Source of the DNA: an uncultured Bacteroidales bacterium
GTDB lineage: Bacteria > Bacteroidota > Bacteroidia > Bacteroidales > UBA932
Length of the DNA: 64,000 bases
Assembly (NCBI GenBank): GCA_934667175.1
Contig: CAKULN010000007.1
Location: forward strand, 23,705 to 87,704
Reading direction: 5' to 3'
A model generated the notes under the pieces. That model searched no databases. It saw only the letters and a list, made by a program, of their open reading frames with translations, and had not been told where the DNA came from. Of this stretch, positions 27,444 to 53,269 are shown one piece after another. The position numbers were made by a program, and so were the translations under genes. The stretch's first letter is position 1. Each line of letters begins with the position of its first letter.

Positions 27444-27525
27444 GGGACTTCACTGCTGCGTTTCGCTGAATGTCGCCTTGTGAAATGCGTGTCGGATAAA
27501 AGATTGATTATTAGTTAGATAAGCG

Positions 27526-27567
27526 TTGGCCTTGTGCTGATTATGGCACAAGACCAATGTTTTTTTA
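27526..27567 (+). terminator. Terminator of pfkA
   Basis: TTGGcCTTGTGC (27526-27537) pairs with GCACAAGaCCAA (27546-27557), followed by TGTTTTTTT. The remaining bases up to 27704 contain a small ACGTTTT/AAAACGT palindrome and nothing else recognisable. Confidence 0.8.
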
Positions 27568-27704
27568 TGGTTGACAGTCAAATATTTAGCTGCCACGCCA
27601 CTGAAGCCCAACGGCAACGTTTTCGCCACAAAACGTCACCGTCACAGTCAGTTTTACTCTTGAGAGGAGCAAAATTGGCTGTATATGCTACTCTCGAAAA
27701 ATCG

Positions 27705-28991: not shown

Positions 28992-28994
28992 GCG

Positions 28995-29027
28995 GCAAAA
29001 TTAACGGTTATTTTAAAAATAATCAAA
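28995..29027 (-). promoter_or_regulatory. Promoter of the DUF4143 ATPase gene
   Basis: On the minus strand TTTG (29027-29024), a 20-bp spacer, and TAATTTTGC (29003-28995). CGC then leads to the ATG, so the mRNA should be leaderless. Confidence 0.65.
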
Positions 29028-29041
29028 TTATTGCGAAATTT

Positions 29042-29112
29042 CATTCCGTCAGTTGGCTGGTTTTCATTCCGTCAGTTGGCTGGTTTTTGTTCCGTCAGTT
29101 GGCGGTAATTCC
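29042..29112. repeat. Short tandem repeat, three units
   Basis: Three tandem copies with the core TTCCGTCAGTTGGCTGGTTTT, the last degenerate (ending GGCGG). Period about 22-24 bp. It lies just upstream of the ATPase promoter. There are too few units, and no spacers, for a CRISPR. Confidence 0.75.
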
Positions 29113-29149
29113 GCCTTTCGGATTGTGAATTGCGTGGCGGATAAAACTG

Positions 29150-29212
29150 CCACGCCCCTGAATGTGACCTCGTGCCGCTTCCGGTTGGAAGGGTGGACAT
29201 TCAGGGGCGTGG
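29150..29212. terminator. Long inverted repeat, likely terminator of the Big_2/BspA lipoprotein gene
   Basis: CCACGCCCCTGAATGT (29150-29165) pairs perfectly with ACATTCAGGGGCGTGG (29197-29212), enclosing 31 bases. On the minus strand the stem is followed by CAGTTTTATC, a weak U tract. Confidence 0.6.
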
Positions 29213-29229
29213 GTTATCGGATGGCCTGA

Positions 29230-30906: not shown

Positions 30907-30950
30907 AACTTATTGAATATTATTAACTAACTTATTCATTTATTTAATTT

Positions 30951-31006
30951 GCCAGTCGCTTCGGCAGGCTCAGCGACCGATTTCTAGGGTAGGCTCAGCG
31001 ACCGCA
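30951..31006. repeat. REP-type repeats
   Basis: Two units with CGCTTCGGCAGGCTCAGCGACC and GTAGGCTCAGCGACC cores. They lie between two same-strand lipoprotein genes and may weaken read-through. Confidence 0.7.
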
Positions 31007-31008
31007 TG

Positions 31009-33657
31009 CTATCTAAGAATCTGCTCCCATGTCTTGTCCACGAAAACAGGCGAAGTTGAGGCGATGCGCTTGCGATTCGGTGACGCGGCATGTGAAACGA
31101 CCGACCTTGTCGCCTTGTGAGCCTGATCCCACTTGACGAACGACTCGTAGTCCGGAGTCCAAGATGCGCCCTCGGAGAGTCTCATCACGCGGATCCAGAT
31201 TGCCTGGCGTGACGGAGCGTTAAACCGCTCGGAGACGCTCTGATACCTCATCATACTGTTCTCACTCGGTCTGAATGCGCCCAATGCGTAGACGCTTGAT
31301 CCCTCGAACACACCAAGGTTTTCTTCCTTGTAGCGGCTGTCCTTGAGGAATGTGCTCCATTTGACATTGTCCGGATTGGACGTGAAGTCAGTGTTCCGGT
31401 ACCAACCGTATTTCTCCTGATTTCCCTTTAGGTAGTCGATTTCCTCCTGAGGAATCCTGCCAAGGGACGAATAGGAATATTCATCATCAAGCTTGCCGAT
31501 TCCGTGTCCCACCAACTCGTGGATGAGGGTAGCTGTGAGATCTTCCTTGGAATACCCCGTGGAGTTCCAGTTCTTGTAAGGAAGGAATGCGATCGATGCC
31601 CCTTCTCCGTAACCTGCTGCGGATGAAGGCTTCAACATGTAGGTCGTGCCAGCGGAGCGGTATGAGTTCATCAGGACAAGAACCGTCACATCATTCATTC
31701 TGGAAGCTCCGACAGCCTTTTTGGAATATTCAAGGACCTTGTCAAGGTCACCACCGCAGGCGGAGCCATTGCCGAAAGTTCCATTGAATACGGTTGACGT
31801 GGCGTTGGTATATTCCTCATTCTTAGAGACCGCGTTGACAAGATAGACATTGAATCTGTCTTTCATGGACTTAAGCGGTTCCATAGAGAATATTCCTTTG
31901 ACAGCATCGTCCGCCATTTTGCGTAGGGTACCGTCCGCAATGAGCCTGTCGGAGAACGCGTCGCCTGTGATGACAATGTCAGCCCCGTTGCCAACGGTCG
32001 CTTTCTGAAGAGTGATCACCTTGCCGTCAGCCGAATAGTCCTTGGATTCGTAATATTCCTCCTTGGAGTCGAAGGCATTGGAGAGATAGTTCAAGACATT
32101 GTCCAATTTATCGCTGCTTTTGTCCGGCAATGTAGTGTAGGACACCGTCCTGTCCGGGCCGATGATCACTACTGAATTCTCTGAAGCGTGAGGGTACATT
32201 GATTTGCCTCGCTCAGTGTAGAACTCCCGCTGCCCATCCTTGTACATCCATGAGGCGAAAGACTTCCAACCGACATGGAATGTGGCGAGAATATTCTTGA
32301 AATCAGCGACATTGGCGCTCTTGTCTTTTGGGTCGTTATTGTCAAAGTAGGTGATCACGCCAAGCCCTTTGTCCTTGTTCTTGTCATAGAACTTGGACAG
32401 CCTTTCGATGAAGCCTTGAGCGTTGCCGGATTGAGGATTGACATGCATCAGCACGGTGTAGCGGTTCTTGCCGAACTCCTGCTCAAGGTCGATTGTGGAG
32501 CCGTCAAGAGCGATTGTCTGGAATGACTTTGGTGCTGGGAGGTGTGAGTCCTCAATGTCTTTTTGAGTAAAGTTGTTTCCAAAGACGATCCCCGTCCACA
32601 GATTCCAGAAGTTTTCCAAGCGCGACACCTCGGTAGGAATCACTCCTGACAGCTTGTTGGCTGACAGGTCGATGGTCTTGAGGTTGGCAAGCCCGCCCAG
32701 TTCGGCTGGTATTGAGCCGGTCAGGCCGCATTTCCAAAGATCCAGTTCAGTCAGTTCGTGAAGATTCCAGAGCTCCGGAATCAGGGAACCGGTCAGTTTG
32801 CTGCCTCCCAGATCAAGCACTTTGAGCTTGGCCAGTTTGGCAATGGATGCCGGTATCGGCTGTGCGTCTGTTAACTTAAGGCGAAGTTCCTCCAGATTTG
32901 CCAGGTCAAACAAAGTTTCCGGTAGCCTGCCTCCTGTCGGATAACTCTGAAAATACAATTTCTTCAAGTACTTCAGTTTCCCGATGGCCTCAGGCAAAGG
33001 GTACGATTGCTCAGGTTCCTCTCCATAATTGGTGATTCGCAATTCCTCAAGCATTTCCAGATCCACGATCTCGTCCGGAATGCGACCATAGACTTCACAG
33101 TCGTTCAGCACAATGGATCTCACGCGCTTACCGTCCTCGGTCATCTTGACTCCGTACCACTCTGACACCGGCTTTGATCCACACCAGTCGTCTTTGTATT
33201 TCCATGAATCACCGTTGTTCGCCTTGTAGAAAGCGATCAAGGCTTGACGTTCTTTCTCCACGTAGGAATCATCCGGCTTCGGATCGGGATTTGGATCTGG
33301 ATCCGTGCCTTGCTCCTCCTTTTTCTTCACTGTCACCCGACACGTTGCGCTGCGGCCTTCCACTGCTGCGGTTACGGTGGCTGTGCCCGGCGTGAGACCG
33401 TTCACATTGCCGTTGTCATCAACGGTGACGACACTCTGGTCGGATGATCTCCATGCGATGGTTCTGCCAGAAGCTTCCACTGGGCTGATCTTTGCGGTCA
33501 GCTTGGCAGACTCGCCTTCGATGATTTCCAAACGGTCTGGAGTGACAGAGACTGAAGAGACTCTGATGGGCTCTTCCTCTTTCTTGCCGCACGAGACGAT
33601 GAGCAGGGCAGCAAAGATTGACGCCGCTATGGCGGAGAGTTTTTGTTTGATGTTCAT
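31009..33657 (-). CDS. Big_2/leucine-rich/thioredoxin-like/M64 peptidase lipoprotein
   Basis: Surface protein of 882 residues joining four modules. After the lipobox (ALLIVSC) comes one Big_2 domain (about 30-115), a Thr/Asp/Pro linker, and a plant-type leucine-rich region from about 135 to 365 that opens with ALIAFYKANNGDSWKYKDDW and has repeats such as GLTGSIPAELGGLANLKTID. A thioredoxin-like fold without the CxxC pair follows at about 380-540 (TVLMHVNPQSGNAQGF). The rest is an M64 metallopeptidase domain with HELVGHGIGKLDDEYS near 710-725, the family's zinc motif; known relatives include an IgA protease. The substrate here is unknown. A strongly structured operator lies 44-112 bp upstream. 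Confidence 0.88.
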   Translation of the reverse strand: MNIKQKLSAIAASIFAALLIVSCGKKEEEPIRVSSVSVTPDRLEIIEGESAKLTAKISPVEASGRTIAWRSSDQSVVTVDDNGNVNGLTPGTATVTAAVEGRSATCRVTVKKKEEQGTDPDPNPDPKPDDSYVEKERQALIAFYKANNGDSWKYKDDWCGSKPVSEWYGVKMTEDGKRVRSIVLNDCEVYGRIPDEIVDLEMLEELRITNYGEEPEQSYPLPEAIGKLKYLKKLYFQSYPTGGRLPETLFDLANLEELRLKLTDAQPIPASIAKLAKLKVLDLGGSKLTGSLIPELWNLHELTELDLWKCGLTGSIPAELGGLANLKTIDLSANKLSGVIPTEVSRLENFWNLWTGIVFGNNFTQKDIEDSHLPAPKSFQTIALDGSTIDLEQEFGKNRYTVLMHVNPQSGNAQGFIERLSKFYDKNKDKGLGVITYFDNNDPKDKSANVADFKNILATFHVGWKSFASWMYKDGQREFYTERGKSMYPHASENSVVIIGPDRTVSYTTLPDKSSDKLDNVLNYLSNAFDSKEEYYESKDYSADGKVITLQKATVGNGADIVITGDAFSDRLIADGTLRKMADDAVKGIFSMEPLKSMKDRFNVYLVNAVSKNEEYTNATSTVFNGTFGNGSACGGDLDKVLEYSKKAVGASRMNDVTVLVLMNSYRSAGTTYMLKPSSAAGYGEGASIAFLPYKNWNSTGYSKEDLTATLIHELVGHGIGKLDDEYSYSSLGRIPQEEIDYLKGNQEKYGWYRNTDFTSNPDNVKWSTFLKDSRYKEENLGVFEGSSVYALGAFRPSENSMMRYQSVSERFNAPSRQAIWIRVMRLSEGASWTPDYESFVKWDQAHKATRSVVSHAASPNRKRIASTSPVFVDKTWEQILR

Positions 33658-33700
33658 GTTAACTTTTAGTTAATCGAATATTCCCGTAATCTTTAAGACA

Positions 33701-33769
33701 GCAAAATTAGCCAATCGTCCACATGAAAAATATGGCAAAAAAGGCATTATATGTCTCTTTTGCCATATT
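33701..33769 (-). promoter_or_regulatory. Promoter with conserved 41-bp palindromic operator, copy 1
   Basis: The -7 box TAATTTTGC (complement of 33701-33709) is separated by exactly 19 bp from a palindrome at 33729-33769. The arms are AATATGGCAAAAAAGGCA (33729-33746) and TGTCTCTTTTGCCATATT (33752-33769) with a 5-bp spacer; 16 of 18 positions pair. No TTTG is found at -33, and the palindrome edge lies there instead, which suggests activation. The same arrangement recurs at 41025-41093 and 45196-45264. Confidence 0.8.
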
Positions 33770-33849
33770 TATCAATTATCAGTGAGCAATTTCTCTGGAA
33801 TATGACCACTCAGGCTCTTCTGAGAACGATTTTCCACATTATCCGTTGA

Positions 33850-34233
33850 ATAATTTGTTCCACGGATAATACCTCGAAAGGAATTACCAACGAGACGGAT
33901 TATTGGTTATCTTTGCTGACGGGGTCGAAGGAGATGGACGGAATGCCGGATTGGGCTAAAGGCAACAAAGCCTACGAGGCCTTCTTCGAGGCATCAACAA
34001 GAGCCAACTTCACGCCCGAAGAAACCATTCAATACGAAAAGGATATGATGACAGAACGGGACAGGATCAACTCCATCAACTACGCAAGGTGGGAAGGAGT
34101 CCAGGAAGGCAAGGCTGAAGGCCGCCAACAGACTCAGCGGGAAATAGCCGTGGCAATGAAGTCTAAAGGTCTCGACACCGAGACAATTGCCTCTTGTACA
34201 GGACTTTCTGTGGAAGAAGTCAATGTGCTTTAG
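33850..34233 (+). pseudogene. C-terminal remnant of an Rpn/PD-(D/E)XK transposase-like nuclease
   Basis: The frame is open from about 33850 to the stop at 34233 but lacks a plausible start. It reads like the last third of the Rpn (PF12784) nuclease family abundant in Bacteroidales: ETDYWLSLLTGSKEMDGMPD, FTPEETIQYEKDMMTERDRI, a Glu/Gly-rich YARWEGVQEGKAEGR stretch, and a final KGLDTETIASCTGLSVEEVN helix-turn-helix-like tail. The catalytic N-terminal part is missing. It is probably the leftover of a mobile gene inserted between the operator of the M64 gene and the end of the neighbouring operon. Confidence 0.75.
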
Positions 34234-34249
34234 AAAGCAGAATCTGCTT

Positions 34250-34292
34250 TGAAATGAAAAAGAGTGCCCCGGCGCGGACCAAGGGCACTCTT
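34250..34292 (-). terminator. Terminator of the TMEM43/Big_2 operon
   Basis: AAGAGTGCCC (34260-34269) pairs with GGGCACTCTT (34283-34292). On the minus strand the stem is followed by TTTTCATTT. It lies 24 bp past the stop of the last operon gene. Confidence 0.82.
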
Positions 34293-34315
34293 CTCAAGAA
34301 TATTTCAGGCGGCCT

Positions 34316-36847
34316 TTATTCTATCGCCACGTACTGGTCAGCGTACTTGCTCCAGTATTTGGTGGTCTTGTAGGTCTCGAGGGAGGCGGCAGGGACGCGG
34401 ATGACGCCCTTGAAGTCACATCCGTGGAAAGGATCATCGAAACGGCCGTCATAGTCATTAAAAGTCGGAGGCACCGCCGCGCGGATCGTGACATCTTTCA
34501 AGACCTTGTTGTACGCTACAAAAGTGACATTGAACCTCTCTAATGTCGAAGGAAGATCCAACACCTCGAACTTTCTGGTGTCAAGGGAATAATTGTCAAG
34601 GTAGGTATAACCTTCACTGACGGTTATTTTCTTGCAATTAGGGTAGAGTCCGTTACGCAGCAGATAATCGCCCAATGCCGTGACATTTTCTATGGCCGGA
34701 ATTGTCAAGGATGACACTGAACTGTGATTCCGGCCTGCAACCCAACCTATAACCTTTTTCATGCTACGGTCAACAATGGCCTGCCCGGTAACATAAATCT
34801 GCGGATGGGATTCATCTATGATGACCTGGTTCACTTCCATTCCACCAAGACCTTGAGTCTTAAGTTTCGGACCGAGGAAAATCTCATCGGCGACAATATT
34901 GATAAAAGCGGTGTTATCAAGATCTTCAATGTTCGGCAGATACAATCTATCTACGAAATACGCTCCATAGAAACTGTAATACTCAATATTCTTTATGCTG
35001 GATGGAACATTGTATAGTTTGGAGTGCTTAAGGGAACCATTTAGAGAAAATGCGTATTTTCCGATTATCTCCAAGCCGCTGTCCGGGAACACAACTTTAT
35101 CCAAAACACAACCTTCAAAGGCACTATCCCCGATTTTAGTGATGTAGTCTGGAAGAATTATGGACTTGAGAGTGTTGTGCCCATAGAACAATGCCGGAGG
35201 GAACTCATCATCAGTAGTAGTGTATTTATCTTTATTCTGAAATCCTGACTTGTAGGAGTCTCCTCCGGAAACAATCCTCACATTCTTCATGTCCGCGCTT
35301 TCAAGTGCGGTGCAATATTCCCGGATCGCTCCCGCATCGCTGGAATTGATAAAGCCTTCCCGCCACTTGATGGAGGTGATCGGCGTCCCGACTTTCGCCA
35401 GCAAATCGCGGAGATGGCCGACTTCGTACGTCATCATCTCTCCACCGTTAACCGAGACAGCTGATTCTCCTATCACCGTGACAATGCACGAAGCCCCGAT
35501 GGCAGGAAATTTCTTGTACTTGACAGAGACGGTGGCTTCGCCCTTCGCAACAGCGTTCAGAGTCCCGTCAGAGTTGACTTTCACTACCTTGTCATCCGAC
35601 GATGCCCATTCGAGCTCGTTTGAGGAGGCGGTCTCAGGGGTATGGGTCGGGGTCAATTTCTTGGTGTCACCGAGAGTGATGGAGATCTTGGCAGGGAGAG
35701 CGATGGCTGTCGGTGTCACGGTCACCTTATAGATTTGGGCGGCCTTGATGGATGGATTGGCGACACACTTAGCGGTGACTGTGACATCTCCCGCCTTAGG
35801 GAGGAATTCCACCTTATGGCCATTGAGCTTCGCCAAGTCGGATTTGTCAACTTCAAGAATCCAATCCTTCTCTCGGGCCGAAGCCGGAAGAACCTCGCAT
35901 TCTATTTCTACTGAGGTTCCGGAATTGACCTCAATAGGAGTCGCGCTCCATCCCTTGATCGAGATGCTCTCAAGAGGCACGTCCGTCACAGTGACGGTAA
36001 TGCTCGCCATCAGACCACCGTTTTTCTGGACAGCGGCAACCTTGCTTGTGCCCAGATTCAAAGGAGTGATGGCGCCGAACTCATCCACTGTAAGGACGTC
36101 AGTGTTCTCGGAGGACCAATTCACCTGTTTGTTTGTCGCATCCGCAGGTTCAAAGACCAGTTCCAAGATCTGTCCCGGCTCATCGATGCGAATCGTGGCC
36201 GCGTAGCCGTCACCGGTACTGTACTTGTCGGCGAAGCGCATCGCGGTGGCTTTGACTTCATTGGATGTCACAGTCACTGAACAGGAGGCGGTGAATTCAG
36301 GGTACTCTTTCAATGTCGCGGTGATCACGGCCTCACCGGCTGCGATAGCCGCGATTGTACCGTTTGTCACTACGGCCACCTTTGAGTTGGAAGTGTTCCA
36401 CTCAACCTCAAGCCCAGTGGCTTTTTCTGGTGTGATGATGGCTTTGATTGAGGTGTTGCCTCCTTCCACAAGGTTCAACTTAGTCTCGCTGAGACTGAAT
36501 GAGGTAACTTTAGCTGAGACCGTGACCTCGCATTTCCCAGACTTGCCTTCGGCTGTGGCGGTGATGGTGGCGGTGCCGGCCTTGATGCCTTGCACGTTGC
36601 CGCTCCCGTCAACGGTGGCGATGGCCTTGTCGGAGGATGTCCAGGTCACGGTCCTGTCAGCGGCCGCCGCAGGAGAAATCTTGGCGGTCAATTTTTTGGA
36701 TTCGCCTTCTGTGAGCTCCACGCTTACTGGAGACACCGCGACGGATGAGACGCTCACAGCCTCTTCCTCTTTCTTACCGCACGAAACGACAAGTAAGGCC
36801 ACAATTGCCGATGTCACGAAGGCGGATAGGGTGTGCTTGAAGTTCAT
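34316..36847 (-). CDS. Surface lipoprotein with several Big_2 domains and BspA-type repeats
   Basis: Predicted adhesin of 843 residues from the ATG at 36847 (MNFKHTLSAFVTSAIVALL); an upstream ATG at 36940 would overlap the previous gene and hide the signal. Lipobox LLVVSC. At least five Ig-like units follow to about residue 500; the first reads VSVELTEGESKKLTAKISPA and a later one LPAKISITLGDTKKLTP. The C-terminal part holds BspA-like repeats (GHNTLKSIILPDYITKIGDS, YPNCKKITVSEGYTYLDN). Last gene of a four-gene operon, 29 bp after the beta-helix gene and before a terminator. Confidence 0.85.
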   Translation of the reverse strand: MNFKHTLSAFVTSAIVALLVVSCGKKEEEAVSVSSVAVSPVSVELTEGESKKLTAKISPAAAADRTVTWTSSDKAIATVDGSGNVQGIKAGTATITATAEGKSGKCEVTVSAKVTSFSLSETKLNLVEGGNTSIKAIITPEKATGLEVEWNTSNSKVAVVTNGTIAAIAAGEAVITATLKEYPEFTASCSVTVTSNEVKATAMRFADKYSTGDGYAATIRIDEPGQILELVFEPADATNKQVNWSSENTDVLTVDEFGAITPLNLGTSKVAAVQKNGGLMASITVTVTDVPLESISIKGWSATPIEVNSGTSVEIECEVLPASAREKDWILEVDKSDLAKLNGHKVEFLPKAGDVTVTAKCVANPSIKAAQIYKVTVTPTAIALPAKISITLGDTKKLTPTHTPETASSNELEWASSDDKVVKVNSDGTLNAVAKGEATVSVKYKKFPAIGASCIVTVIGESAVSVNGGEMMTYEVGHLRDLLAKVGTPITSIKWREGFINSSDAGAIREYCTALESADMKNVRIVSGGDSYKSGFQNKDKYTTTDDEFPPALFYGHNTLKSIILPDYITKIGDSAFEGCVLDKVVFPDSGLEIIGKYAFSLNGSLKHSKLYNVPSSIKNIEYYSFYGAYFVDRLYLPNIEDLDNTAFINIVADEIFLGPKLKTQGLGGMEVNQVIIDESHPQIYVTGQAIVDRSMKKVIGWVAGRNHSSVSSLTIPAIENVTALGDYLLRNGLYPNCKKITVSEGYTYLDNYSLDTRKFEVLDLPSTLERFNVTFVAYNKVLKDVTIRAAVPPTFNDYDGRFDDPFHGCDFKGVIRVPAASLETYKTTKYWSKYADQYVAIE

Positions 36848-36876
36848 AATCAATATAATTTTATTAACGCATGACA

Positions 36877-38445
36877 CTACCGAGGCACCTGCGCCCCGTA
36901 GCCCGGCATCGCGCCGAAGAGGAGAAGCGCCTTTTCCCAATTGTAGCGGTTGGCGTACATCGTGACCTTGGAGGTCATCGTGCCGATCTGGTTCATGCCG
37001 AGGGCCGAACGGAACGTGTTGACCGCGGAATTTGGATTGTGCTGCATCTCAGCGGTGTAAGACGCGTTGAGGAACCCTTTCAAGTAAGCCTCGTCAATCT
37101 TGCCTTTGAATATGTTCGCATCCTTGACCGTAGTGTTGCCACCCTCGGAGTCGAGATATTCAACGTCAGAGAAATCAGCGCTGCTGATGTTGATGAAATT
37201 GCCGCCTCCCGGAATCGAAATGTCACCCATCCTGTTGAGGAAGAACACATTGTTCTCCACGCTGGTCTTGCGGGTGGCCTCACGGTTCCTGTCGCTGTCG
37301 ATGTGCGTGTAGTCCAGGGCGGTCATCATAGAGCAACCGAAGATGTTGTTCGCAAGGTGGCAGTCCGTGCCAGGCTGGAAACGGAATCCGTAGCCCATCG
37401 TCTCAAGATTCTGCTTGAACGACCACATAAACAACAATGTGTTGTTGGTGAAGTCAACCCTTGAGTTTACCTTTGGATCCGAACCACGCACGTCCATCGC
37501 CTCCATCCTACAGTTCACGAATATGTTGTTGTCGATGTACATCGAACCCCTGAACAGGCCGAGGATCACGTGGTTCGGAGCGTTGATGAAAGCACAGTTG
37601 CGCACGGTCAGGTTAACATTGGAGTTGTTCATATAGAGAATGCAGGACTCCTTCGTGAAAGTCTCCAGATTGGAAAGGTCCGCTCCTCCCATACCTTTGG
37701 TTCCGATAGGGTTCATCTTAGTCGTCTCCACACCTTCAGGCTGCCCCTTCTGGTTCTCGTCGTTGCCTGAATAGTAGGAGATGGAGTTGCCACGGTCGAA
37801 GATGATTCCGTCGAACAGAACCTCGGCGTTGCGGTACTCAACATTGCTGTCATACTTGCCGACATTGATCTCAAGCTGCACTGTCGGGGCCTTGGCGGTG
37901 CCGTTGGACTCCGGAGTCGGCTGAACCATAGTGCGGTAGTTCAGGATGTCACGCTGAGAGAAATCTCCGTTGAAGCCACCGTAGATGTAGGCCGGTTTGC
38001 GGACGAAGATGTTCCCGCAGCGAAGGAGACCATAGTAGTTGCCGGCGGCCACGTAGATTGTGGAACCGGCGGGAGCGATGTCCAAAGCCTTCTGGATGTT
38101 CTTGAGAGGGGTTGCCGGGCTTAGTCCGTCATTCTTGTTGTTGCCTGACTCGCTGACGTAGTAGATTGTGCCGTTGGCGTTGGCGGCCACACGACCGTTG
38201 CTCACAGCGGGTGCCTTTCCGCCGCGGCCGTTAATCGCATCGTTCGCCCCCTTCTCGATGGCACCCTCAACCTTGTCCAGCCCTTTCTGGATGGCTCTGT
38301 CCACTCCCATAGTGGTCCTTGTGGTCGCGGCGTTCTTGGCGCGTTTCCCAAGTTGGTTCAGAAGATTCTGAGCCGGCATATTCATTGAAAGCGAGAGAGC
38401 GATAATTAATCCCAGCGCTTTTTTAATATTTTCGAATGTTTTCAT
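36877..38445 (-). CDS. Secreted right-handed beta-helix protein (DUF1565-like)
   Basis: Exported protein of 522 residues with a signal peptide ending near MPAQN. An amphipathic helical stretch (LLNQLGKRAKNAATTRTTMG) follows the signal, much as in the product of 39712-40995. From about 95 the sequence shows the DUF1565/pectate-lyase-like start IYYVSESGNNKNDGLSPATP, which leads into parallel beta-helix coils (NVNLTVRNCAFINAPNHVIL, IDNNIFVNCRMEAMDVRG). Such folds occur in polysaccharide lyases and epimerases, but I cannot identify catalytic residues. Third gene of the operon, 41 bp after the TMEM43 gene. Confidence 0.78.
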   Translation of the reverse strand: MKTFENIKKALGLIIALSLSMNMPAQNLLNQLGKRAKNAATTRTTMGVDRAIQKGLDKVEGAIEKGANDAINGRGGKAPAVSNGRVAANANGTIYYVSESGNNKNDGLSPATPLKNIQKALDIAPAGSTIYVAAGNYYGLLRCGNIFVRKPAYIYGGFNGDFSQRDILNYRTMVQPTPESNGTAKAPTVQLEINVGKYDSNVEYRNAEVLFDGIIFDRGNSISYYSGNDENQKGQPEGVETTKMNPIGTKGMGGADLSNLETFTKESCILYMNNSNVNLTVRNCAFINAPNHVILGLFRGSMYIDNNIFVNCRMEAMDVRGSDPKVNSRVDFTNNTLLFMWSFKQNLETMGYGFRFQPGTDCHLANNIFGCSMMTALDYTHIDSDRNREATRKTSVENNVFFLNRMGDISIPGGGNFINISSADFSDVEYLDSEGGNTTVKDANIFKGKIDEAYLKGFLNASYTAEMQHNPNSAVNTFRSALGMNQIGTMTSKVTMYANRYNWEKALLLFGAMPGYGAQVPR

Positions 38446-38486
38446 CTTATTATTTGAATATTAATATGCTGTTGCTGTGATAGGCA

Positions 38487-39668
38487 CTATGCGGCCGTCG
38501 CGGCCTTCTTCCTGCGGGCAAGGAATATGATCAATGCGATGGCGATCACGATCAGGGATATTCCCAGAACAGGCCTGTAGGCAAGCCAAGCGATGGCGAT
38601 CACGATGAACGACCACGCGAAGCCGACGAGCGAGCAGACAAGGCCCACACCTGCACCGATGATGCTCGCGATGAAAGGAACCACCTTGGCAAGAGTCTCA
38701 AGGAATCCGAATATGCCCTTCAGGCCACCGATGACAAGGAATATTCCCAGGAACCTGAGGATCCAGAGCCACAGTTTGTTGGCCGAGTGCTGCCCCTCGT
38801 ACATCTGGTCGGCTGACTGGGCACCCATCTGAAGGACATCGAAATTCTTTCCGTTCTTCGAGGTGTAAGGCACGAACGTGTCACCGCTGACCTGAGCCAT
38901 CAGCGAAACCTCTGCCGGAAGCACCTTTGTGAAGGTCACGCGCACGTCACCGACCTGAGGCGTTCCGGACTTCTGGCCGAAGCTGACCACATTGTTCTGA
39001 ATCTTCACGGCAAGGGTTGTGTCAATCAGGCACTCCTCTCTGAACAGTTCCTTGGTGATCCTTTCGGTGTCCTTCTCGGAGAAGAGGAATGGCTGCTCAC
39101 CGGTGATAGAGGCGATCTGGCTCTTGGTCAGCCTGTAGGCTCCGAACGTCACGTTCTCGGCTGTCTGCCTCAAGTCGTCAATGGCGATCTTTACCCTGTT
39201 CGCTCCTTGATACTCCGGATCGTGGAACTCCTCGGAATTTACAGGAGAGTCCACCCATTTCTTTTCGTAGGTGTAGGTCGTTGTAGTTTCCTGGCCACCT
39301 CCGACTTTGTCCTTGGTCTTGCTCTGTGACCGCTCCACCCATTGGTAGTACTCAACCTTTCTGACAAACTTGACTGCTGTCACCCCGATGCCGAAATCAG
39401 GATCGATGAGAGAGTCAATCGTGGCGGTCATTCCGGTGGCATGGACGAGTTTTCCGTCGAACTGAGGGTTAACAGTGTTGATGTCGGTCATCTCTACCGT
39501 CACCCCGGCGGCCTCGTTAAGCATTTTTGTCGTCTTGACAGCCCTGCCTTCGTTCCACCAGAGGAGGATCGTGCCGACTATAAGAAGAACAAATCCGGAA
39601 CCGATGCCACCGAAAGATTTCTTCACGCGCTGACCGTAGGTGGTCTTTGTTGTCTCTGTGTAAGCCAT
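38487..39668 (-). CDS. TMEM43 (LUMA) family membrane protein
   Basis: Bacterial homologue of the eukaryotic nuclear-envelope protein TMEM43, 393 residues. A membrane segment near 20-40 (GFVLLIVGTILLWWNEGRAV) is followed by the family hallmark GRAVKT and a large soluble domain (about 45-290) rich in beta strands. Three or four membrane segments close the protein (about 305-385) and a Lys/Arg-rich tail follows. The biochemical role of bacterial members is not established. It is encoded between a secreted coiled-coil protein and a secreted beta-helix protein, with gaps of 43 and 41 bp, in an operon behind a palindromic operator. The context suggests an envelope function. Confidence 0.85.
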   Translation of the reverse strand: MAYTETTKTTYGQRVKKSFGGIGSGFVLLIVGTILLWWNEGRAVKTTKMLNEAAGVTVEMTDINTVNPQFDGKLVHATGMTATIDSLIDPDFGIGVTAVKFVRKVEYYQWVERSQSKTKDKVGGGQETTTTYTYEKKWVDSPVNSEEFHDPEYQGANRVKIAIDDLRQTAENVTFGAYRLTKSQIASITGEQPFLFSEKDTERITKELFREECLIDTTLAVKIQNNVVSFGQKSGTPQVGDVRVTFTKVLPAEVSLMAQVSGDTFVPYTSKNGKNFDVLQMGAQSADQMYEGQHSANKLWLWILRFLGIFLVIGGLKGIFGFLETLAKVVPFIASIIGAGVGLVCSLVGFAWSFIVIAIAWLAYRPVLGISLIVIAIALIIFLARRKKAATAA

Positions 39669-39711
39669 AAGATAATTGGATTTTGGTTTGTATTAATTAT
39701 GTGATTATGAT

Positions 39712-40995
39712 TTACTTGATGAAGAACCCGCTTCTTGTGCCAACTCCGAAGAAGTACGTCTTGCCGTACTTGCCTCCGCCCATATAGTCCTGAGCGAATC
39801 CGTAGTTTGTGGCATAGCGCTTCCCGTCCTTCTTGATGTCCACCCAAGCGCTGACACGGCGGCGCACGATGTTGCCGAAGCCGTCACGGTCGATCTGCCA
39901 GGTGGAGTTCAGAATCGTCACACGCTTGGCATCCTCTTCAGGGAACTGGGCACGCGCTGCCGCCAGACAAGCGTTCAGGAAAGCCGCGTCACCCATCTTG
40001 GTGGCTGGCCAAGGCTGCATACTTGCGGCAATCTCCGCCTCGCGGGCGGCCTTGCGCTCGGCCTCTTCTTTGGCAAGCTGCTCTTTCTCAGCCTTGTACT
40101 CATCCCTCAGCTGGGCGGCCGGCTTGACCGGATTCCTTGCCTGGAACTCTTCGGAAGTCTGTGCGATGGCAGACTTCAGGTCGGCGAGAACCTGATTGTA
40201 GCGTGGATCGCTTTCAAGCAGGTAGCCGAAGGAAGCGTTGAGGTTGTAGGCTGAATATGCCCAGTCAAGGTACCATTCCTTCATCTTCCCTGAATATTCA
40301 TTGGACTTCCCGATCTCGAACTCGATCTGATTGTAGGTCCCTTCAGCGAACTTGGCCCTGTCTTCCTTGGCCGTCGCGGCCTTCTTTGGCAATCCGGCCC
40401 AAAGTTTTGCCCAGATCTTGCCGTAGGCTGCGTTGTAATGATCCTTGTACTCATTGTACCTGAACTGGTCCTTGATACCTTCAGCTTCACGGACCATATT
40501 CTCGATGTAATTGTACATCTCCCCGGAGCGGGTGAAATATTCAAGCTCTTGATTGTAAAAATTCTGTTCATCGGCAGCCTCTTCCATCCTGTAGAGATAG
40601 TAGAGGGCGTTGGCGATGACGGTCTTGCTGTTCATCGTCATAAGGTGAAGATCCTTCTTCCACTCCTGAAGCTGATTCCAGGACGACTTCGCATTGCTTT
40701 CGTAAAGGGTCCCTTGCTGGCCTTTGATCCTTACGCAGTCTCCCATATCTGAATTCCAGAATTTTTCCTCGTCCGGACGGACTCCGTCCTGTGCCTGCCC
40801 GGCAGGATCGTTAGTGTCAGTATTGGCTGTTTCCGACTTCGATGTCTCCGCCGCCGACTTCGTCTTGGAAACTTCGTTCCTGACCTTATTCTTAAGAGCG
40901 TTCCCGAGTCCGCCCAACTGTGCGTTGGCTGTCATTGTGCCGAGTCCCGCCATCAGGGCTGCGACCATCAAGGCTTTCAATCTAAGATTTGTCAT
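39712..40995 (-). CDS. Secreted helical protein of unknown function
   Basis: Exported protein of 427 residues with a signal peptide ending at MTANAQ. A low-complexity helical stretch follows (LGNALKNKVRNEVSKTKSAA), then a long helical body to about 330 with charged coiled-coil sequence (EYKAEKEQLAKEEAERKAAR). The C-terminal 100 residues look like a small alpha/beta domain (KRVTILNSTWQIDRDGFGNI, RRRVSAWVDIKKDGKR). I do not recognise a family. It is the first gene of the four-gene operon and lies directly behind copy 2 of the conserved operator. Confidence 0.7.
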   Translation of the reverse strand: MTNLRLKALMVAALMAGLGTMTANAQLGGLGNALKNKVRNEVSKTKSAAETSKSETANTDTNDPAGQAQDGVRPDEEKFWNSDMGDCVRIKGQQGTLYESNAKSSWNQLQEWKKDLHLMTMNSKTVIANALYYLYRMEEAADEQNFYNQELEYFTRSGEMYNYIENMVREAEGIKDQFRYNEYKDHYNAAYGKIWAKLWAGLPKKAATAKEDRAKFAEGTYNQIEFEIGKSNEYSGKMKEWYLDWAYSAYNLNASFGYLLESDPRYNQVLADLKSAIAQTSEEFQARNPVKPAAQLRDEYKAEKEQLAKEEAERKAAREAEIAASMQPWPATKMGDAAFLNACLAAARAQFPEEDAKRVTILNSTWQIDRDGFGNIVRRRVSAWVDIKKDGKRYATNYGFAQDYMGGGKYGKTYFFGVGTRSGFFIK

Positions 40996-41024
40996 TATGT
41001 GATTTTTTTAGGTTTATGTGTACT

Positions 41025-41093
41025 GCAAAGTTAGGCGGTACGCCCCAATAGGAATATGGCCAAAGAGGCAAATTGCATCTCTTTGACCATATT
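41025..41093 (-). promoter_or_regulatory. Promoter with conserved 41-bp palindromic operator, copy 2
   Basis: -7 box TAACTTTGC (complement of 41025-41033), 19 bp, then a palindrome at 41053-41093: AATATGGCCAAAGAGGCA (41053-41070), 5-bp spacer, CATCTCTTTGACCATATT (41076-41093), 14 of 18 pairs. It drives the four-gene operon that begins at 40995. It lies within the 124 bp between that operon and the upstream regulator gene. Confidence 0.8.
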
Positions 41094-41119
41094 TTAGTAA
41101 AATCACCCTGAAAATGTGG

Positions 41120-42757
41120 CTATTGTCCGACGTTACTGTCCCGCCATTGCTTAGGGGTCGTTCCTGTCACTTTCTTGAAAAGTGTTATGAAATAGGACAC
41201 ATCGTTGATGCCGCAAAGCGACGCCACATCGGCGATCGGCTTGTCTTTTTGTGTGCTGAGAATCTCTTTGGCCATCTCTATCCTGACTTCCGTCACCAAA
41301 GCGCTGCTGCTGCCTCCTGTCTGTGCCTTGATTTGGCGGTTGAGATTCGACCTTGTGGTGCAGAGCGCGGACGCCGCTTCCTGAAGGTCAACGTCCTTCC
41401 CTTCAATGATCTGTTTCCGGATCTCAGCCTTCAACGGTTCGACAACATCTCGCTCAGGAGTCAGTGACGGACGAGAGGCCGTACGCTTCCTTGCCGCGTC
41501 GAGTTTGGCCAGAGTGTCGTCAAGGATGGATTTGATAGACTTGTTCCTGCGGGCGAGAAGCCATATCGCGAATGCCAGCAATGCCACGGCCACGATGCCG
41601 AACCACAGGATCTTCCGTTTGGAACTCAGGTGATGATCCCGCTCGCTGGTGATCTGCTCGTTGCGGTAGCGGGCGTTATATTCATTGAGACCTTGGTTCA
41701 TCTCGCTGTCGTAGAGAGAGTCCTTGATGTGGGTATATTGCATCAGATGTTCCACGGCTTCGTCGGAATTATGAGGAGTCAAAGCGCGGCTGAGTCCATA
41801 GTGCGAATGGCTCTTGTTATAGGCGTCCCCTTTTTCCGTAAAGACCTTGAGAGCCTTACGGAAATATTCAACAGCCTTTTCATTGTCTCCTTTTTGGAGG
41901 CAGATGTCGCCCATTTGGTTGCAGCTGATGGCCCAGGACTGCATATTTCCGGCCTTTTCCAGCTCGGGAAGCGCTTCGATCAGAGACTTCTCCGCATCAT
42001 CGTACTGGCCAAGGGCAATCTGCGCCGCCGCCATCTGTGACAGTCTGACCGCCGCCTTGTCGTCAAGCCCCATCTCCTTGTTGATGTCGTAGGCGCGGTG
42101 GGAATATTCAAGGCTCTTCTCATCCTCACCCATACTGTGGTAGATCTCCGCCGCCATACCGCATCGCACCGCCAGTTTCAGGGAATCATTCTGCCTTTCA
42201 CAGATTTTGATGGCCTCAAGAACGTATTTAACTCCCTCCGCCGGCTGCTTCGACGCAAGGCATATCCCTGCCAGGGTGTTCAATGAATATGCGATCCGCG
42301 TCTCATCCTGAAGCTCCCGCCCCAACGAGAGGGTCGCCTTTGCGTATTCCAGTGACTTGTGATAGTCGGACTTTCGGAAATATGCTATGGAAAGTACGTT
42401 GTCACAGTCGCATTCTATCTCTTTTGCTCCGATTTTCTTACTGAGAGCCAATGCTTTGCTTGAATATTCAATGGACTTGTCGTACTCCTGCGAATCATAG
42501 TACCACTCTCCGGCCCAGTACCAGGTCAGGGCCTTGACGCTGTCTGGCTTGCTGCTGGGAATCAGTTCGACCGTGTTCTCGGTGAATTCATTTTCGGCCA
42601 GATACTTGAAGAATGCTTCCGCTGTGCTTGCGGCTTGAGAACCTTTTTGTTGATCGAATGCAATGACAAGCGAGTCCACCACATTCTGCGAATATGCGGA
42701 CAAGGTGAGTAGCAGGAATATGTTGGTCAGTGCGATTCTTAGTGACTTCATTTTCAA
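41120..42757 (-). CDS. Membrane-spanning TPR sensor with AraC-type DNA-binding domain
   Basis: One-component regulator of 545 residues. A signal peptide (1-24, ending SAYSQ) exports the N-terminal part, which holds tetratricopeptide repeats from about 60 to 345 (KAVEYFRKALKVFTEKGDAY and similar). One membrane segment near 385-405 (ILWFGIVAVALLAFAIWLLA) is followed by a linker. An AraC-family double helix-turn-helix fills the last 100 residues (DLQEAASALCTTRSNLNRQI, then IADVASLCGINDVSYFITLF and FKKVTGTTPKQW). The design implies sensing in the periplasm and DNA binding in the cytoplasm. It is encoded between two units that carry the shared palindromic operator, which makes it the leading candidate for the protein that binds there. 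Confidence 0.88.
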   Translation of the reverse strand: MKMKSLRIALTNIFLLLTLSAYSQNVVDSLVIAFDQQKGSQAASTAEAFFKYLAENEFTENTVELIPSSKPDSVKALTWYWAGEWYYDSQEYDKSIEYSSKALALSKKIGAKEIECDCDNVLSIAYFRKSDYHKSLEYAKATLSLGRELQDETRIAYSLNTLAGICLASKQPAEGVKYVLEAIKICERQNDSLKLAVRCGMAAEIYHSMGEDEKSLEYSHRAYDINKEMGLDDKAAVRLSQMAAAQIALGQYDDAEKSLIEALPELEKAGNMQSWAISCNQMGDICLQKGDNEKAVEYFRKALKVFTEKGDAYNKSHSHYGLSRALTPHNSDEAVEHLMQYTHIKDSLYDSEMNQGLNEYNARYRNEQITSERDHHLSSKRKILWFGIVAVALLAFAIWLLARRNKSIKSILDDTLAKLDAARKRTASRPSLTPERDVVEPLKAEIRKQIIEGKDVDLQEAASALCTTRSNLNRQIKAQTGGSSSALVTEVRIEMAKEILSTQKDKPIADVASLCGINDVSYFITLFKKVTGTTPKQWRDSNVGQ

Positions 42758-42840
42758 TAGTATGGCTAAGCTGGTGCCTGCGTGGCAGACAAAAGCGTCT
42801 TACAAATTTGAGAAAATTATCTGAATATTCCTACTTCAAA

Positions 42841-42875
42841 ACAAAAAGCCGATGGCAAAAGAATGCCACCGGGCT
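42841..42875 (-). terminator. Terminator of the 5'-nucleotidase operon
   Basis: AGCC-ga-TGGCA (42847-42857) pairs with TGCCA-cc-GGGCT (42864-42875). On the minus strand it is followed by TTTTTGTTTT. Confidence 0.8.
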
Positions 42876-42909
42876 GGTTTAACTAATATTATTTGTATTT
42901 ATGGGTGTT

Positions 42910-43737
42910 CTATCTTCCGATCTTCAGATTGCCGACGTTCAGACCCCACTCTCCGTCTTGGACGATAGGTGTAGGCACCCCGTCAAGATTCTTCTCATAG
43001 TGAGGATCCTTAAGATAGGTGTGCGAGTGGCCACCGACTACTAGATCCACGTTGTGGGTCCTGCTGACAAGCATCTGGTCGAGGTACGGCTCGTCCTCGA
43101 AACCGATGTGCGTCAGGGCGATCACAAGATCGCATTTCTCCTTGTTCTTCAGGTACTCGGCCCATTTGTTGACAACCTCGGCGTTCTCGTAACCCGGAAT
43201 TCTGTCGGACACCTCCTTGGTGACAAGAATCGTTATGTCCGGCATCAGGCCGATGATTCCGATCTTCATTCCGGCCTTCTTCACGATGGTGTAAGGCTTC
43301 ACGTACTTGGTCAAAGACACGTTTGAGAAGTCGTAGTTCGCGCAGACAACCGGGCATTTGATCTTTGCCAGACGACGTGCAAGTTCATCGACACCGTTGT
43401 CGAACTCGTGGTTGCCGAGGGTCACGCAGTCGTACTTCATCGCGTTGATGAGATCGATCTCGATGTCGCCTCCGAGCACTGAGAAGTAAGACGTCCCCTG
43501 ATCGAAGTCTCCGGCGTGGAGAAGAAGCACGTTCTTCTTTCCGTCAGCCTTCACGACGCTGTCCCTGTAGGCAGCCCGCTCTATCACTCCGCCGTGCCCC
43601 AGATGCTCGCCGGCGCGTTCCGGCTCAAGGTGGCTGTGGGTGTCATTGACGTGGAGGATGGTAAGTCTCTTCTGGGCCGCCGCGTCGATGTTCGTCAGGG
43701 CTGCAAGCAGACATATTCCTAAAATTATCTTTCTCAT
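42910..43737 (-). CDS. 5'-nucleotidase, metallophosphatase (N-terminal) domain protein
   Basis: Periplasmic metallophosphoesterase of 275 residues corresponding to the catalytic half of UshA-type 5'-nucleotidases. The signal peptide ends near DAAAQ. Metal ligands: LHVNDTHSHLEP (about 24-35), HAGDFDQGT (76), LGNHEFDNG (106), ALTHIGFEDE (206) and GGHSHTYL (239). The start is the ATG whose A is also the last base of the upstream stop codon (TGATG); an AAAGGAGGA Shine-Dalgarno sequence precedes it inside the upstream gene, so translation is coupled. The C-terminal half is encoded by the gene just upstream. It would release nucleosides and phosphate from nucleotides in the periplasm. Confidence 0.9.
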   Translation of the reverse strand: MRKIILGICLLAALTNIDAAAQKRLTILHVNDTHSHLEPERAGEHLGHGGVIERAAYRDSVVKADGKKNVLLLHAGDFDQGTSYFSVLGGDIEIDLINAMKYDCVTLGNHEFDNGVDELARRLAKIKCPVVCANYDFSNVSLTKYVKPYTIVKKAGMKIGIIGLMPDITILVTKEVSDRIPGYENAEVVNKWAEYLKNKEKCDLVIALTHIGFEDEPYLDQMLVSRTHNVDLVVGGHSHTYLKDPHYEKNLDGVPTPIVQDGEWGLNVGNLKIGR

Positions 43738-44576
43738 CACTCGTCCTCCTTTAATATTGTGATCCAATTATGGTTCTGGTACTCGACAGGCTTGCTGGCG
43801 GCGGTGAGGCTCTGGACATAGGCGAGCATCGTGTCGTAGAGGTAGCCGTTGCACATTATAACCTCTTCGGCGTTCTTGGCCACCTTGTAGCCGTCCCCGC
43901 CGTCAAGCATAAAGTTAAGGGTCGCGACTCCGTAGATCCTGTCGTCGTCGATCGGCTCTCCGTTAATCGTGGCCGAGACTATCTTGCCGTTCTTGGCCAC
44001 GACCTTGATTCCGCCGACGATCTGGAATGTCGTGGATGCCATCTGGTTAAGGATGACTTTCACGTCACGGCCTCGCAAGGCCACATAGCAGAGGTTGTTG
44101 CGGAACGGGAACATCGACATAATGTCATCGTAGAGAATCTCACCGGCCGGCATATCGATCCGGACTCCGCCACGGTTGGCGATGCCGATGTCAACCCTCT
44201 TGCCGGTGCTGTCCGCCGTGGCGCGCATCAGCTCGTCAATGTACCAGTCGTAGATCTCGCACTCGGGGTATGTCCTGACCATCGTGCGGGTGGAGTGCCC
44301 GATGACGGACTTGACCTTGGCCATTGCCGGCTGCGCGTCGAGCATTATCTTGGCGACATCCTTGACAGTTCCCTTGCGGAACTTCTTCCCGTTGGGCGCA
44401 TAATAGGTACAGCCCTTGACCGTGCCCATCGCCTCCTCGACGTTCGACGCGTTGGATGCCACGACACCCGTGCGGTGTCCGTCCACCGGATCCGTCGTCC
44501 AGGTGATCGTCCGCTCCTGCGCCGAAAGGCTCAGCCCTCCGGCCAGAAACAGGATGATTGTCAGTTTAATCTTCAT
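43737..44576 (-). CDS. 5'-nucleotidase C-terminal domain protein
   Basis: Stand-alone 5'-nucleotidase C-terminal (substrate-binding) domain, 279 residues, with a signal peptide ending GLSLSAQ. Marks: GNRGGV-type motif as IANRGGVRIDMPAGEI near 148-163, MFPFRNNLCYVALRGRD, and YGVATLNFMLDGGDGYK near 230-246. The first 60 residues (TITWTTDPVDGHRTGVVASN) precede the domain. Bacteroidetes commonly encode the two halves of the enzyme as neighbours in this reversed order. It overlaps the catalytic-half gene by one base and follows the small lipoprotein gene by 70 bp. Confidence 0.88.
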   Translation of the reverse strand: MKIKLTIILFLAGGLSLSAQERTITWTTDPVDGHRTGVVASNASNVEEAMGTVKGCTYYAPNGKKFRKGTVKDVAKIMLDAQPAMAKVKSVIGHSTRTMVRTYPECEIYDWYIDELMRATADSTGKRVDIGIANRGGVRIDMPAGEILYDDIMSMFPFRNNLCYVALRGRDVKVILNQMASTTFQIVGGIKVVAKNGKIVSATINGEPIDDDRIYGVATLNFMLDGGDGYKVAKNAEEVIMCNGYLYDTMLAYVQSLTAASKPVEYQNHNWITILKEDE

Positions 44577-44601
44577 TATGTGTCAGTTTTAATAAAGCAC
44601 G

Positions 44602-44621
44602 CCCGTCACTTAAGTGGCGGG
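44602..44621. other. Hairpin between operon genes
   Basis: CCCGtCACTTAAGTGgCGGG is a near-perfect palindrome in the 70-bp gap between two same-strand genes. There is no U tract, so it is more likely an mRNA stability or processing element than a terminator. Confidence 0.5.
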
Positions 44622-44646
44622 TGTGGGTACACAGCCTTCTCTCAGG

Positions 44647-45126
44647 CTACTTAACAATCTTGACGGTAACTGTCTTGCTGATGGTAATCTTACCGTCAGC
44701 GCTGGTGTAAGTTAAAGAGTACTTTTCTGAATCGCCTTCCTTCGCATCAGTACGAGCATCGAATCTGAGCGCTTTCGCAGGGCAGGAATATGCCTTGCCG
44801 TCAATTGCCACCGGGACAACTTTCCTGTGCCTGATAGAGGTGGTGGTCAGACATTCGTTTGTGATGGCATTGTCATCATCGTAAGGAAGCAGATTCTTTC
44901 CGTCGCTTGGACAGAAAACTTCATTATGAGAGTCGTCGCCGAGTTTGACGGTAAGCACGTCCGGCATTGCGTCACGAACACCGTTTTCGGTGACCCTGAC
45001 AAAGTAAGGCTTCTGCTCTGGTTCCGGATCCTTGTTGTCATCTTTCTTGCAACCTGTGGAGGCGAGCATTAGCGCTGCCATCGCGGCGAAGGCTACGCTT
45101 CGCAGATAGTGATTCTTCATATTCAC
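44647..45126 (-). CDS. Small lipoprotein of unknown function
   Basis: Lipoprotein of 159 residues. The signal ends at LASTGC (Cys26) and is followed by an acidic linker (KKDDNKDPEPEQK). The remaining 120 residues are beta-rich and look like one Ig-like domain (SEKYSLTYTSADGKITISKT at the end), with two further cysteines. I do not recognise a family. It is the first gene of an operon with the split 5'-nucleotidase and lies behind copy 3 of the conserved operator. The position next to the nucleotidase halves may point to an envelope-anchoring or binding role; this is inference. Confidence 0.7.
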   Translation of the reverse strand: MNMKNHYLRSVAFAAMAALMLASTGCKKDDNKDPEPEQKPYFVRVTENGVRDAMPDVLTVKLGDDSHNEVFCPSDGKNLLPYDDDNAITNECLTTTSIRHRKVVPVAIDGKAYSCPAKALRFDARTDAKEGDSEKYSLTYTSADGKITISKTVTVKIVK

Positions 45127-45195
45127 AAAATTTTAATGATTGATATTAGTTTTAGTACTTAATATAATGTCTTTTCTCATTCGGTTCTGACGTTT

Positions 45196-45264
45196 GCAAA
45201 GTTAACGGGCGTTTCCCGAAATGAATATGGCAAAAGGGGCAATTTGTGTCTTTTCCGCCATATT
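45196..45264 (-). promoter_or_regulatory. Promoter with conserved 41-bp palindromic operator, copy 3
   Basis: -7 box TAACTTTGC (complement of 45196-45204), exactly 19 bp, then the palindrome AATATGGCAAAAGGGGCA (45224-45241), 5-bp spacer, TGTCTTTTCCGCCATATT (45247-45264), 13 of 18 pairs. It controls the lipoprotein/5'-nucleotidase operon. The leader would be about 65 nt. Confidence 0.8.
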
Positions 45265-45361
45265 TCCGCCAAATCATTGCCTCCAGACAGAGCCGCCTCC
45301 CTCAAAATTTCCATTCCATCTTCTGGCTTCCGCGGACGCTCTTTGCTATATGAAATTATGA

Positions 45362-45502
45362 ATATCTCAAAAGCAAACCATCGAAGAGGTCCTGAGAGTG
45401 GAGCAAAAACTGGCGGTATTGCTTCAGTCAGAGACTAAAATTCACGCGACGGGAGCATATTCACCACAAAATGTAGCTGAGGTTCCTAATGGTTGGTCTT
45501 GA
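45362..45502 (+). other. Coding-like fragment without a start codon
   Basis: An open frame of 46 codons between a TGA (45359) and a TGA (45500) reads like a protein C-terminus (QTIEEVLRVEQKLAVLLQSE) but has no start codon and no family I recognise. The rest of 45265-45543 shows nothing else. It may be a gene remnant. Confidence 0.25.
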
Positions 45503-45543
45503 GGGTGGAGAATTGTCGCCTTCAGAGCCTATGAAAGATTAAG

Positions 45544-45603
45544 TTTGAATATTTCGGAAAAAATGCCTATCTTTGCGACCCCTATGTTGTGTAGGGATCG
45601 CAA
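45544..45603 (+). promoter_or_regulatory. rplM promoter with overlapping palindrome
   Basis: TTTG (45544-45547), a 20-bp spacer and TATCTTTG (45568-45575) form a canonical promoter. An inverted repeat, TTGCGACCCCTA (45573-45584) with TAGGGATCGCAA (45592-45603), spans the -7 end and the expected transcript start. It could be an operator or, once transcribed, a 5' hairpin. Confidence 0.7.
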
Positions 45604-45635
45604 TATTTTATGTTAAACCATTAAAGATCAAGACA

Positions 45636-53169: not shown

Positions 53170-53269
53170 TCAGTTTGATTCTAACGTCGAATTATGGCTA
53201 AAAATGACTTATTTGCCTTTTGGGTCATAAATGCGGAAGTTTGGAACAAAAATAAAATATCCAATCTTG

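Follow-up and report, generated by a model that had tools for sequence, protein, structure and literature searches.

Three operons on the minus strand of the window, as we call the whole 64,000-nucleotide stretch analysed here, are each preceded by a palindrome at a constant distance from a promoter without a -33 element, and among them lies the gene for a regulator that joins a TPR domain, a transmembrane helix and an AraC-type DNA-binding domain. Quite probably, dimers of this TPR-AraC protein bind the palindromes and activate the three operons, contacting RNA polymerase from a site that replaces the -33 element. The system is best read as a surface regulon that is self-contained and depends on an activator, with an operator that is an inverted variant of the AraC architecture familiar from Bacteroides; the palindrome case is a variant of a known AraC-type kind, not a new kind. 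The palindromes and the promoter boxes that they face are located as follows:

33729..33769, minus strand: palindrome 1, candidate operator of operon 1 (arms 16/18; promoter-proximal arm 33729-33746)
41053..41093, minus strand: palindrome 2, candidate operator of operon 2 (arms 14/18)
45224..45264, minus strand: palindrome 3, candidate operator of operon 3 (arms 13/18)
33702..33709, minus strand: -7 box TAATTTTG of operon 1, 19 bp (33710-33728) from palindrome 1
41026..41033, minus strand: -7 box TAACTTTG of operon 2, 19 bp from palindrome 2
45197..45204, minus strand: -7 box TAACTTTG of operon 3, 19 bp from palindrome 3

As the earlier note had claimed, the palindromes lie at the coordinates given there, each measures 41 bp, with two 18-bp arms and a 5-bp spacer (3/3 sites), and the distance to the -7 box is exactly 19 bp in every case. 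All three face minus-strand operons. The boxes all fit TAA(C/T)TTTG (3/3). The sigma-ABfr consensus, in the available text of PMC7366714, combines TAnnTTTG at -7 with TTTG near -33, and the palindrome promoters carry the first at 3/3 sites and the second at 0/3, no TTTG being present 17-23 bp upstream of the box, again in agreement with the earlier description. At the neighbouring rplM promoter (box at 45568) TTTG stands 20 bp upstream, and of the window's 34 TAnnTTTG boxes that were tested, 4 have it 17-23 bp upstream. Two patterns derived from the sites match these three places alone in the window and give 0 matches in 100 shuffles, and an unguided repeat search puts the three sites in one family, with copies 76% and 81% identical to the first. 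When the half-site consensus of the earlier note is run over the window, the four best matches (17/18 each) all fall inside the three sites; the remaining two arms, at 14/18 and 13/18, do not rise above background (best match outside the sites, 14/18). When the inverted repeats upstream of the window's 34 TAnnTTTG boxes are ranked, the three sites are among the top four, the other being an A/T-rich repeat upstream of the box at 53254, and across all the loci fetched an inverted score of at least 13 occurs at 7 of 818 distinct boxes as background. A score of 13 or 14 taken singly says little, and it is the common letters together with the common gap that are distinctive.

Long inverted repeats in intergenic DNA may also be extragenic repeats of the REP or MITE kind, or transcription terminators, that have spread in the island, and such an origin would suit palindrome 2, close behind a stop codon, and palindrome 1, which is followed by TTT. 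However, the copies number only three in the window, each upstream of an operon and exactly 19 bp from a -7 box, their spacers and flanks differ, palindrome 1 sits 546 bp from the end of the preceding gene, palindrome 3 lies between divergent genes, and none of the three sites appears in the terminator scan. Both the terminator and the mobile-repeat readings are rejected on position, copy number and the scan, and we give this explanation a very small probability. In the window, no Rfam family reaches its gathering score and no tRNA was found.

The operons that follow the palindromes are predicted to comprise these genes:

29230..33657, minus strand: operon 1 (Pfam and N-termini; membership judged from spacing and strand)
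31009-33657, minus strand: Big_2/LRR/peptidase M64 lipoprotein, operon 1 (Pfam, N-terminus)
29230-30906, minus strand: Big_2/BspA-LRR lipoprotein, operon 1 (Pfam, N-terminus)
34316..40995, minus strand: operon 2 (Pfam and N-termini)
39712-40995, minus strand: exported-looking protein without a family, operon 2
38487-39668, minus strand: TMEM43-domain protein, operon 2 (Pfam)
36877-38445, minus strand: DUF1565 protein, operon 2 (weak PF07602 match)
34316-36940, minus strand: Big_2/BspA-LRR lipoprotein, operon 2 (Pfam, N-terminus)
42910..45126, minus strand: operon 3 (Pfam)
44647-45126, minus strand: small lipoprotein without a family, operon 3
43737-44576, minus strand: 5'-nucleotidase C-terminal-domain protein, operon 3 (Pfam)
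42910-43767, minus strand: metallophosphoesterase, operon 3 (Pfam)

By Pfam, these contents are those listed in the earlier note, the beta-helix label resting on the weak DUF1565 match. No SusC or SusD is found among the ten island proteins scanned. Named adhesins, internalins and plant-pathogen effectors were considered for the Big_2/LRR proteins and rejected, the matches being far below curated cut-offs, and we think that these matches represent shared LRR or Ig repeats only. The 5'-nucleotidase is split over two genes (42910-44576) with the C-terminal-domain gene first, which is presumably the reverse of the fused order. The three Big_2 lipoprotein genes share a 244-bp module (30565-30808, 33319-33562 and 36509-36752; 67-82% identity) and are, to judge from their sequences, duplicated or recombining adhesin-like genes within the island.

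This module, present in the Big_2 genes of operons 1 and 2 at the identity just given, would also be expected if whole operons had been duplicated, the promoter being carried along, and the palindromes were a by-product without a shared live regulator. Operon 3, however, has no Big_2 gene, and the stretch between palindrome and gene start has no evident kinship among the three sites by eye, yet the arms and the 19-bp gap are kept. Spacers and flanks differ as well, as the earlier note had pointed out for spacers and downstream sequences, and duplication without a live regulator appears highly improbable.

The likely regulator gene, not mentioned in the earlier note, falls inside the very coordinates of the finding, between operons 3 and 2, with a hairpin upstream of it:

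41120..42751, minus strand: proposed activator, TPR-AraC (HTH_18 and TPR_12 matches; translation; hydropathy)
42849..42872, minus strand: terminator-like hairpin between operon 3 and the regulator gene (9-bp stem and T run)

The reading frame has 545 codons and is listed from a TTG at 42757, with an ATG at 42751. Its product begins with a signal-peptide-like N-terminus, followed by a TPR region at about residues 27-370, one transmembrane helix (383-401) and HTH_18 (462-540), and the Pfam matches are strong (TPR_12, 5.6e-26; HTH_18, 7.4e-17, and HTH_AraC, 1.5e-13, the last two both over cut-off). It possesses the C-terminal HTH_18/AraC DNA-binding domain of AraC/XylS-type regulators, and its sequence matches in the PDB include AraC, GadX, a xylose operon regulator and a hybrid two-component protein; Pfam finds in it neither a histidine kinase nor a receiver domain, such as would define an HTCS. 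Presumably the TPR domain is periplasmic and the DNA-binding domain cytoplasmic. Palindrome 2 begins 26 bp past the regulator stop codon, and the region upstream of the regulator itself has no palindrome. The terminator scan gave 17 sites against 18.5 expected in shuffles, so that the hairpin at 42849..42872 is a consensus match only. Homologues 57-90% identical to the regulator are known as proteins alone, without DNA context. In the metagenomic protein P0043, an N-terminal part of 369 residues from an 86%-identical regulator is fused to a stretch of TMEM43 protein (79% identical); it is probably an assembly or deletion chimera, and the fusion suggests that the regulator and TMEM43 genes are neighbours there too.

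The position of the operators finds a close parallel beside related regulators. A contig scan with the regulator yielded 46 loci, 28-51% identical over the best segment, and every TAnnTTTG box in them (657 boxes) was scored at fixed offsets for a repeat of at least 13/17. With a period of 21, such a repeat is present at 27 of the 657 boxes, and other periods yield 0 for 17-19 and 22-25, 1 for 26 and 8 for 20. Two of the 27 lie elsewhere in L025, and the other 25 are distributed one per locus over 25 of the 46 loci; these 25 represent 23 distinct 60-bp upstream sequences, many of them from one orthologue group and not independent. In 25/25 the box lies 64-324 bp past the stop of the nearest AraC-type HTH gene (L019 and L028 also show a second HTH stop, respectively 357 bp ahead of the box and 412 bp beyond it), a range that includes the -7 box of palindrome 2, 86 bp past the regulator stop. 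The proximal half-site begins, with TGT(C/T), exactly 37 bp before the box in 23/25 (the exceptions being L002, with 38, and L009, with another motif), and TTTG occurs 17-23 bp upstream of the box in 0/25. The remaining 21 of the 46 loci have no tandem site of at least 13/17 beside a TAnnTTTG box, and they include contig ends, weaker repeats, loci with no perfect box and loci with no visible site. The 19-bp gap is the geometry of operators beside TPR-AraC regulators. The proposal of an activator-dependent surface regulon, made in the earlier note, is supported by the shared operator, the fixed gap, the missing -33 element and a cargo of surface proteins and lipoproteins, but the gap extends beyond this one regulon.

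The half-site letters past the leading TG differ strongly between lineages by eye, and regulator groups with different recognition helices (also by eye) have different half-site sequences. One example is TTGTTCC...TTTTCAAA in the Cryptobacteroides-like loci (a label taken from database proteins that share about 50% identity with the regulator), and another is TTTGTCCG..TTTTG.AAA in Paludibacteraceae. A further tandem motif, AAATGATAA, also of period 21 and before a TAACTTTG box, is seen at the Prevotellaceae/Bacteroidaceae TPR-AraC genes of L007, L008 and L009, the first two scoring just below the 13/17 cut. In L002 and L061 the TPR-AraC gene with its tandem operator adjoins Big_2 surface genes. 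In five of the six Cryptobacteroides-like relatives (L001, L003, L004, L005 and L006), an early gene downstream of the regulator encodes a peptide of 55-60 aa with Y-x-x-P...C and an NGxY end, followed in L003-L005 by a lipoprotein-like ORF of ~730 aa, and these small-peptide genes look like a conserved surface system under TPR-AraC control. For this class of membrane sensors of Bacteroidales, the common geometry amounts to a testable rule, by which the operator is to be sought just downstream of the regulator stop codon, as a repeated half-site with the proximal copy starting 37 bp before a TAnnTTTG box without a -33 element.

The window sites share the register of this class and depart from it in symmetry. 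The proximal arm of each palindrome begins with TGCC 37 bp before the box (18 + 19; 3/3), so that all three have a half-site TG at 37 bp before TAnnTTTG and no -33 TTTG, and the footprint of the two half-sites is nearly equal in the window and in the relatives; the distal half in the window is on the opposite strand. Scored both ways, the window sites reach 4-6/18 as tandem and 13-16/18 as inverted repeats, and the relatives (11 of the 25 were scored) 13-17/18 and 8-11/18. The site of L061 scores 14 as tandem but also 12 as inverted. A hidden tandem repeat in the window sites is ruled out by their scores of 4-6/18; they do not have the 21-bp tandem arrangement of HTCS operators and of the TPR-AraC relatives, being inverted instead.

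Classical HTH dimers usually leave the mark of inverted symmetry in their sites, and the palindromes might therefore belong to some other dimeric regulator, unlinked and acting as activator or repressor, the AraC gene being a neighbour by chance; the sites are tandem, not inverted, in 11/11 scored relatives of the AraC protein, which likewise speaks for such a regulator. Against it, the proximal half starts exactly at -37 and a site comes directly after the regulator stop, both as in the TPR-AraC class, and a simple HTH dimer would be expected to cover less than 41 bp. We consider an unlinked regulator unlikely, and prefer the TPR-AraC protein encoded between the operons.

By eye, the recognition helices of this protein and its homologues differ from those of the groups with tandem sites. 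A midpoint-rooted tree places the window clade (support 1.0, eleven members used) beside L001, L002, L004 and L005 (joint node 0.997), which makes tandem the likelier older state; the tandem sites of L001, L002 and L004 were scored and that of L005 was read by eye. These nearest tandem-site relatives of the regulator are only 46-49% identical to it, and the inverted state is represented by one window. It is a tentative suggestion, with the chances falling a little on the negative side, that in the window regulator and its 57-90% identical homologues the distal half of the operator was flipped from tandem to palindromic, the proximal half staying fixed at -37, along with new recognition helices, and that this yielded a private operator for an accessory island of surface proteins. 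If an AraC-type operator did go from tandem to inverted here with the polymerase contact kept, this natural example would bear on the flexibility of AraC-type regulators and on how surface-protein islands bring their own control.

In the mechanism that we propose, the TPR domain, presumably periplasmic, would sense an extracytoplasmic signal, and the cytoplasmic AraC-type domain would then bind as a dimer, with each 18-bp arm taken by one monomer. Ending 19 bp upstream of the -7 box, the promoter-proximal arm would take the place of the missing -33 element, and since it occupies that place, the bound activator is expected to recruit RNA polymerase in a class II-like manner. A single regulator would serve all three sites, and three operons would be switched on, for surface lipoproteins, adhesin-like Big_2/LRR proteins, an M64-type peptidase, the TMEM43 protein and the split 5'-nucleotidase. 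Related TPR-AraC regulators have their operators at the same position, with TG at -37 and tandem halves at a 21-bp period; in this lineage the distal half is inverted, which yields the palindrome.

Several systems described for other bacteria share parts of this layout. In the available text of PMC3878776, the half-sites of Bacteroides HTCS proteins repeat at about 21 bp (16+5 and 12+9, with 14+6 for one), and HTCS_Man, with a DNA-binding domain of the AraC type, is reported to have 16-bp half-sites with a 5-bp spacer, close to the 18-bp arms of the window palindromes. The same text describes a membrane sensor joined to an AraC-type DNA-binding domain, encoded near its target operons, and a half-site period of about 21 bp as in the relatives of the window regulator. 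The window system differs from these in that no kinase or receiver was found, the operator is inverted, not tandem, and the cargo is surface or adhesin-like, with no SusC/SusD among the ten proteins scanned. ToxT, according to the portion of PMC3089052 available, is an AraC-family activator whose paired half-sites are tandem at some promoters and inverted at others; there, however, both forms occur within one regulon and the boxes are of 13 bp, whereas the three window sites are without exception inverted, their arms measure 18 bp, and the split between tandem and inverted lies between regulator lineages. AggR, in the accessible part of PMC6392122, likewise has its site at a fixed distance from the -10 element (21-22 bp, optimum 22), but a single site can suffice, and the promoters are those of E. 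coli with a -10 hexamer. Another palindromic operator in a Bacteroidales genome is the 22-bp Crp-like palindrome of Bacteroides treated in the available text of PMC3878776, although it is about half the length and belongs to another regulator family.

The palindrome was sought outside the window with two patterns, both of which recover the three window sites. One found it in 0 of 7 related genomes and the other, looser, in none of 400 genomes sampled from the nearest genus (that of G002), so that the copies in related genomes for which the earlier note had proposed to look did not appear. There is no exact match of the pattern in IMG/VR, where exact matching would miss a site like palindrome 2. 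Orthologues of the regulator above 54% identity with DNA were likewise not found in 398 genomes of the family of G002, 200 genomes of its genus, 170 relatives of G219 and 168 genomes of the order (query P0040), in samples that overlap and cover part of each group, the best few candidates per genome being scored. No relatives of the regulator were detected in IMG/VR, by protein or by alignment, and 242 plasmid records have matches below 60% identity that all fall short of 80% query coverage, those listed (ten) being TPR proteins. By title and abstract opening, no paper was found on TPR-AraC regulators of Bacteroidales or their operators, which is weak evidence of absence. The missing copies are not taken as refuting the regulon, since the regulator is accessory and operators of this class vary from one regulator lineage to another; the palindrome itself is left without comparative support.

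The system looks accessory from its location, in a block between two flanking genes:

27444..45539: block between pfk and rplM (three operons, regulator, DUF4143/AAA gene)
26463-27443, plus strand: pfk, island flank
45573-46088, plus strand: rplM, island flank
27705-28991: DUF4143/AAA gene, in the block

The corresponding region was taken from the genomes closest in EF-Ts, out of 249 sampled (G219, 85%; G136, 84%; G249, 83%) and from ten more distant ones, and of the 13 stretches obtained 12 are informative, L067 being too short to reach rplM. The operon genes and the regulator are absent from 12/12 (tblastn, E 1e-10). In L071 and L073 pfk stands immediately before rplM, in L066 and L068 dus is beside rplM, and in the rest other or small genes occupy the place; the sole match to an island gene in the 12 stretches is that of the DUF4143/AAA gene in L075, more than 7 kb beyond dus. 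In seven of the eight nearest genomes the regulator has no match at E 1e-15, the eighth having a weak one (27%). Since relatives have neither the operon genes nor the regulator at this locus, and seven of the eight nearest genomes have no regulator match, the regulator appears to form a single accessory block of ~18 kb together with the operons and their operators, which would represent an insertion here, not a loss elsewhere. No integrase was detected among the 20 proteins scanned, and no end repeat was found. Between the DUF4143/AAA gene and operon 1, at 29039-29107, three 23-bp tandem repeats are present.
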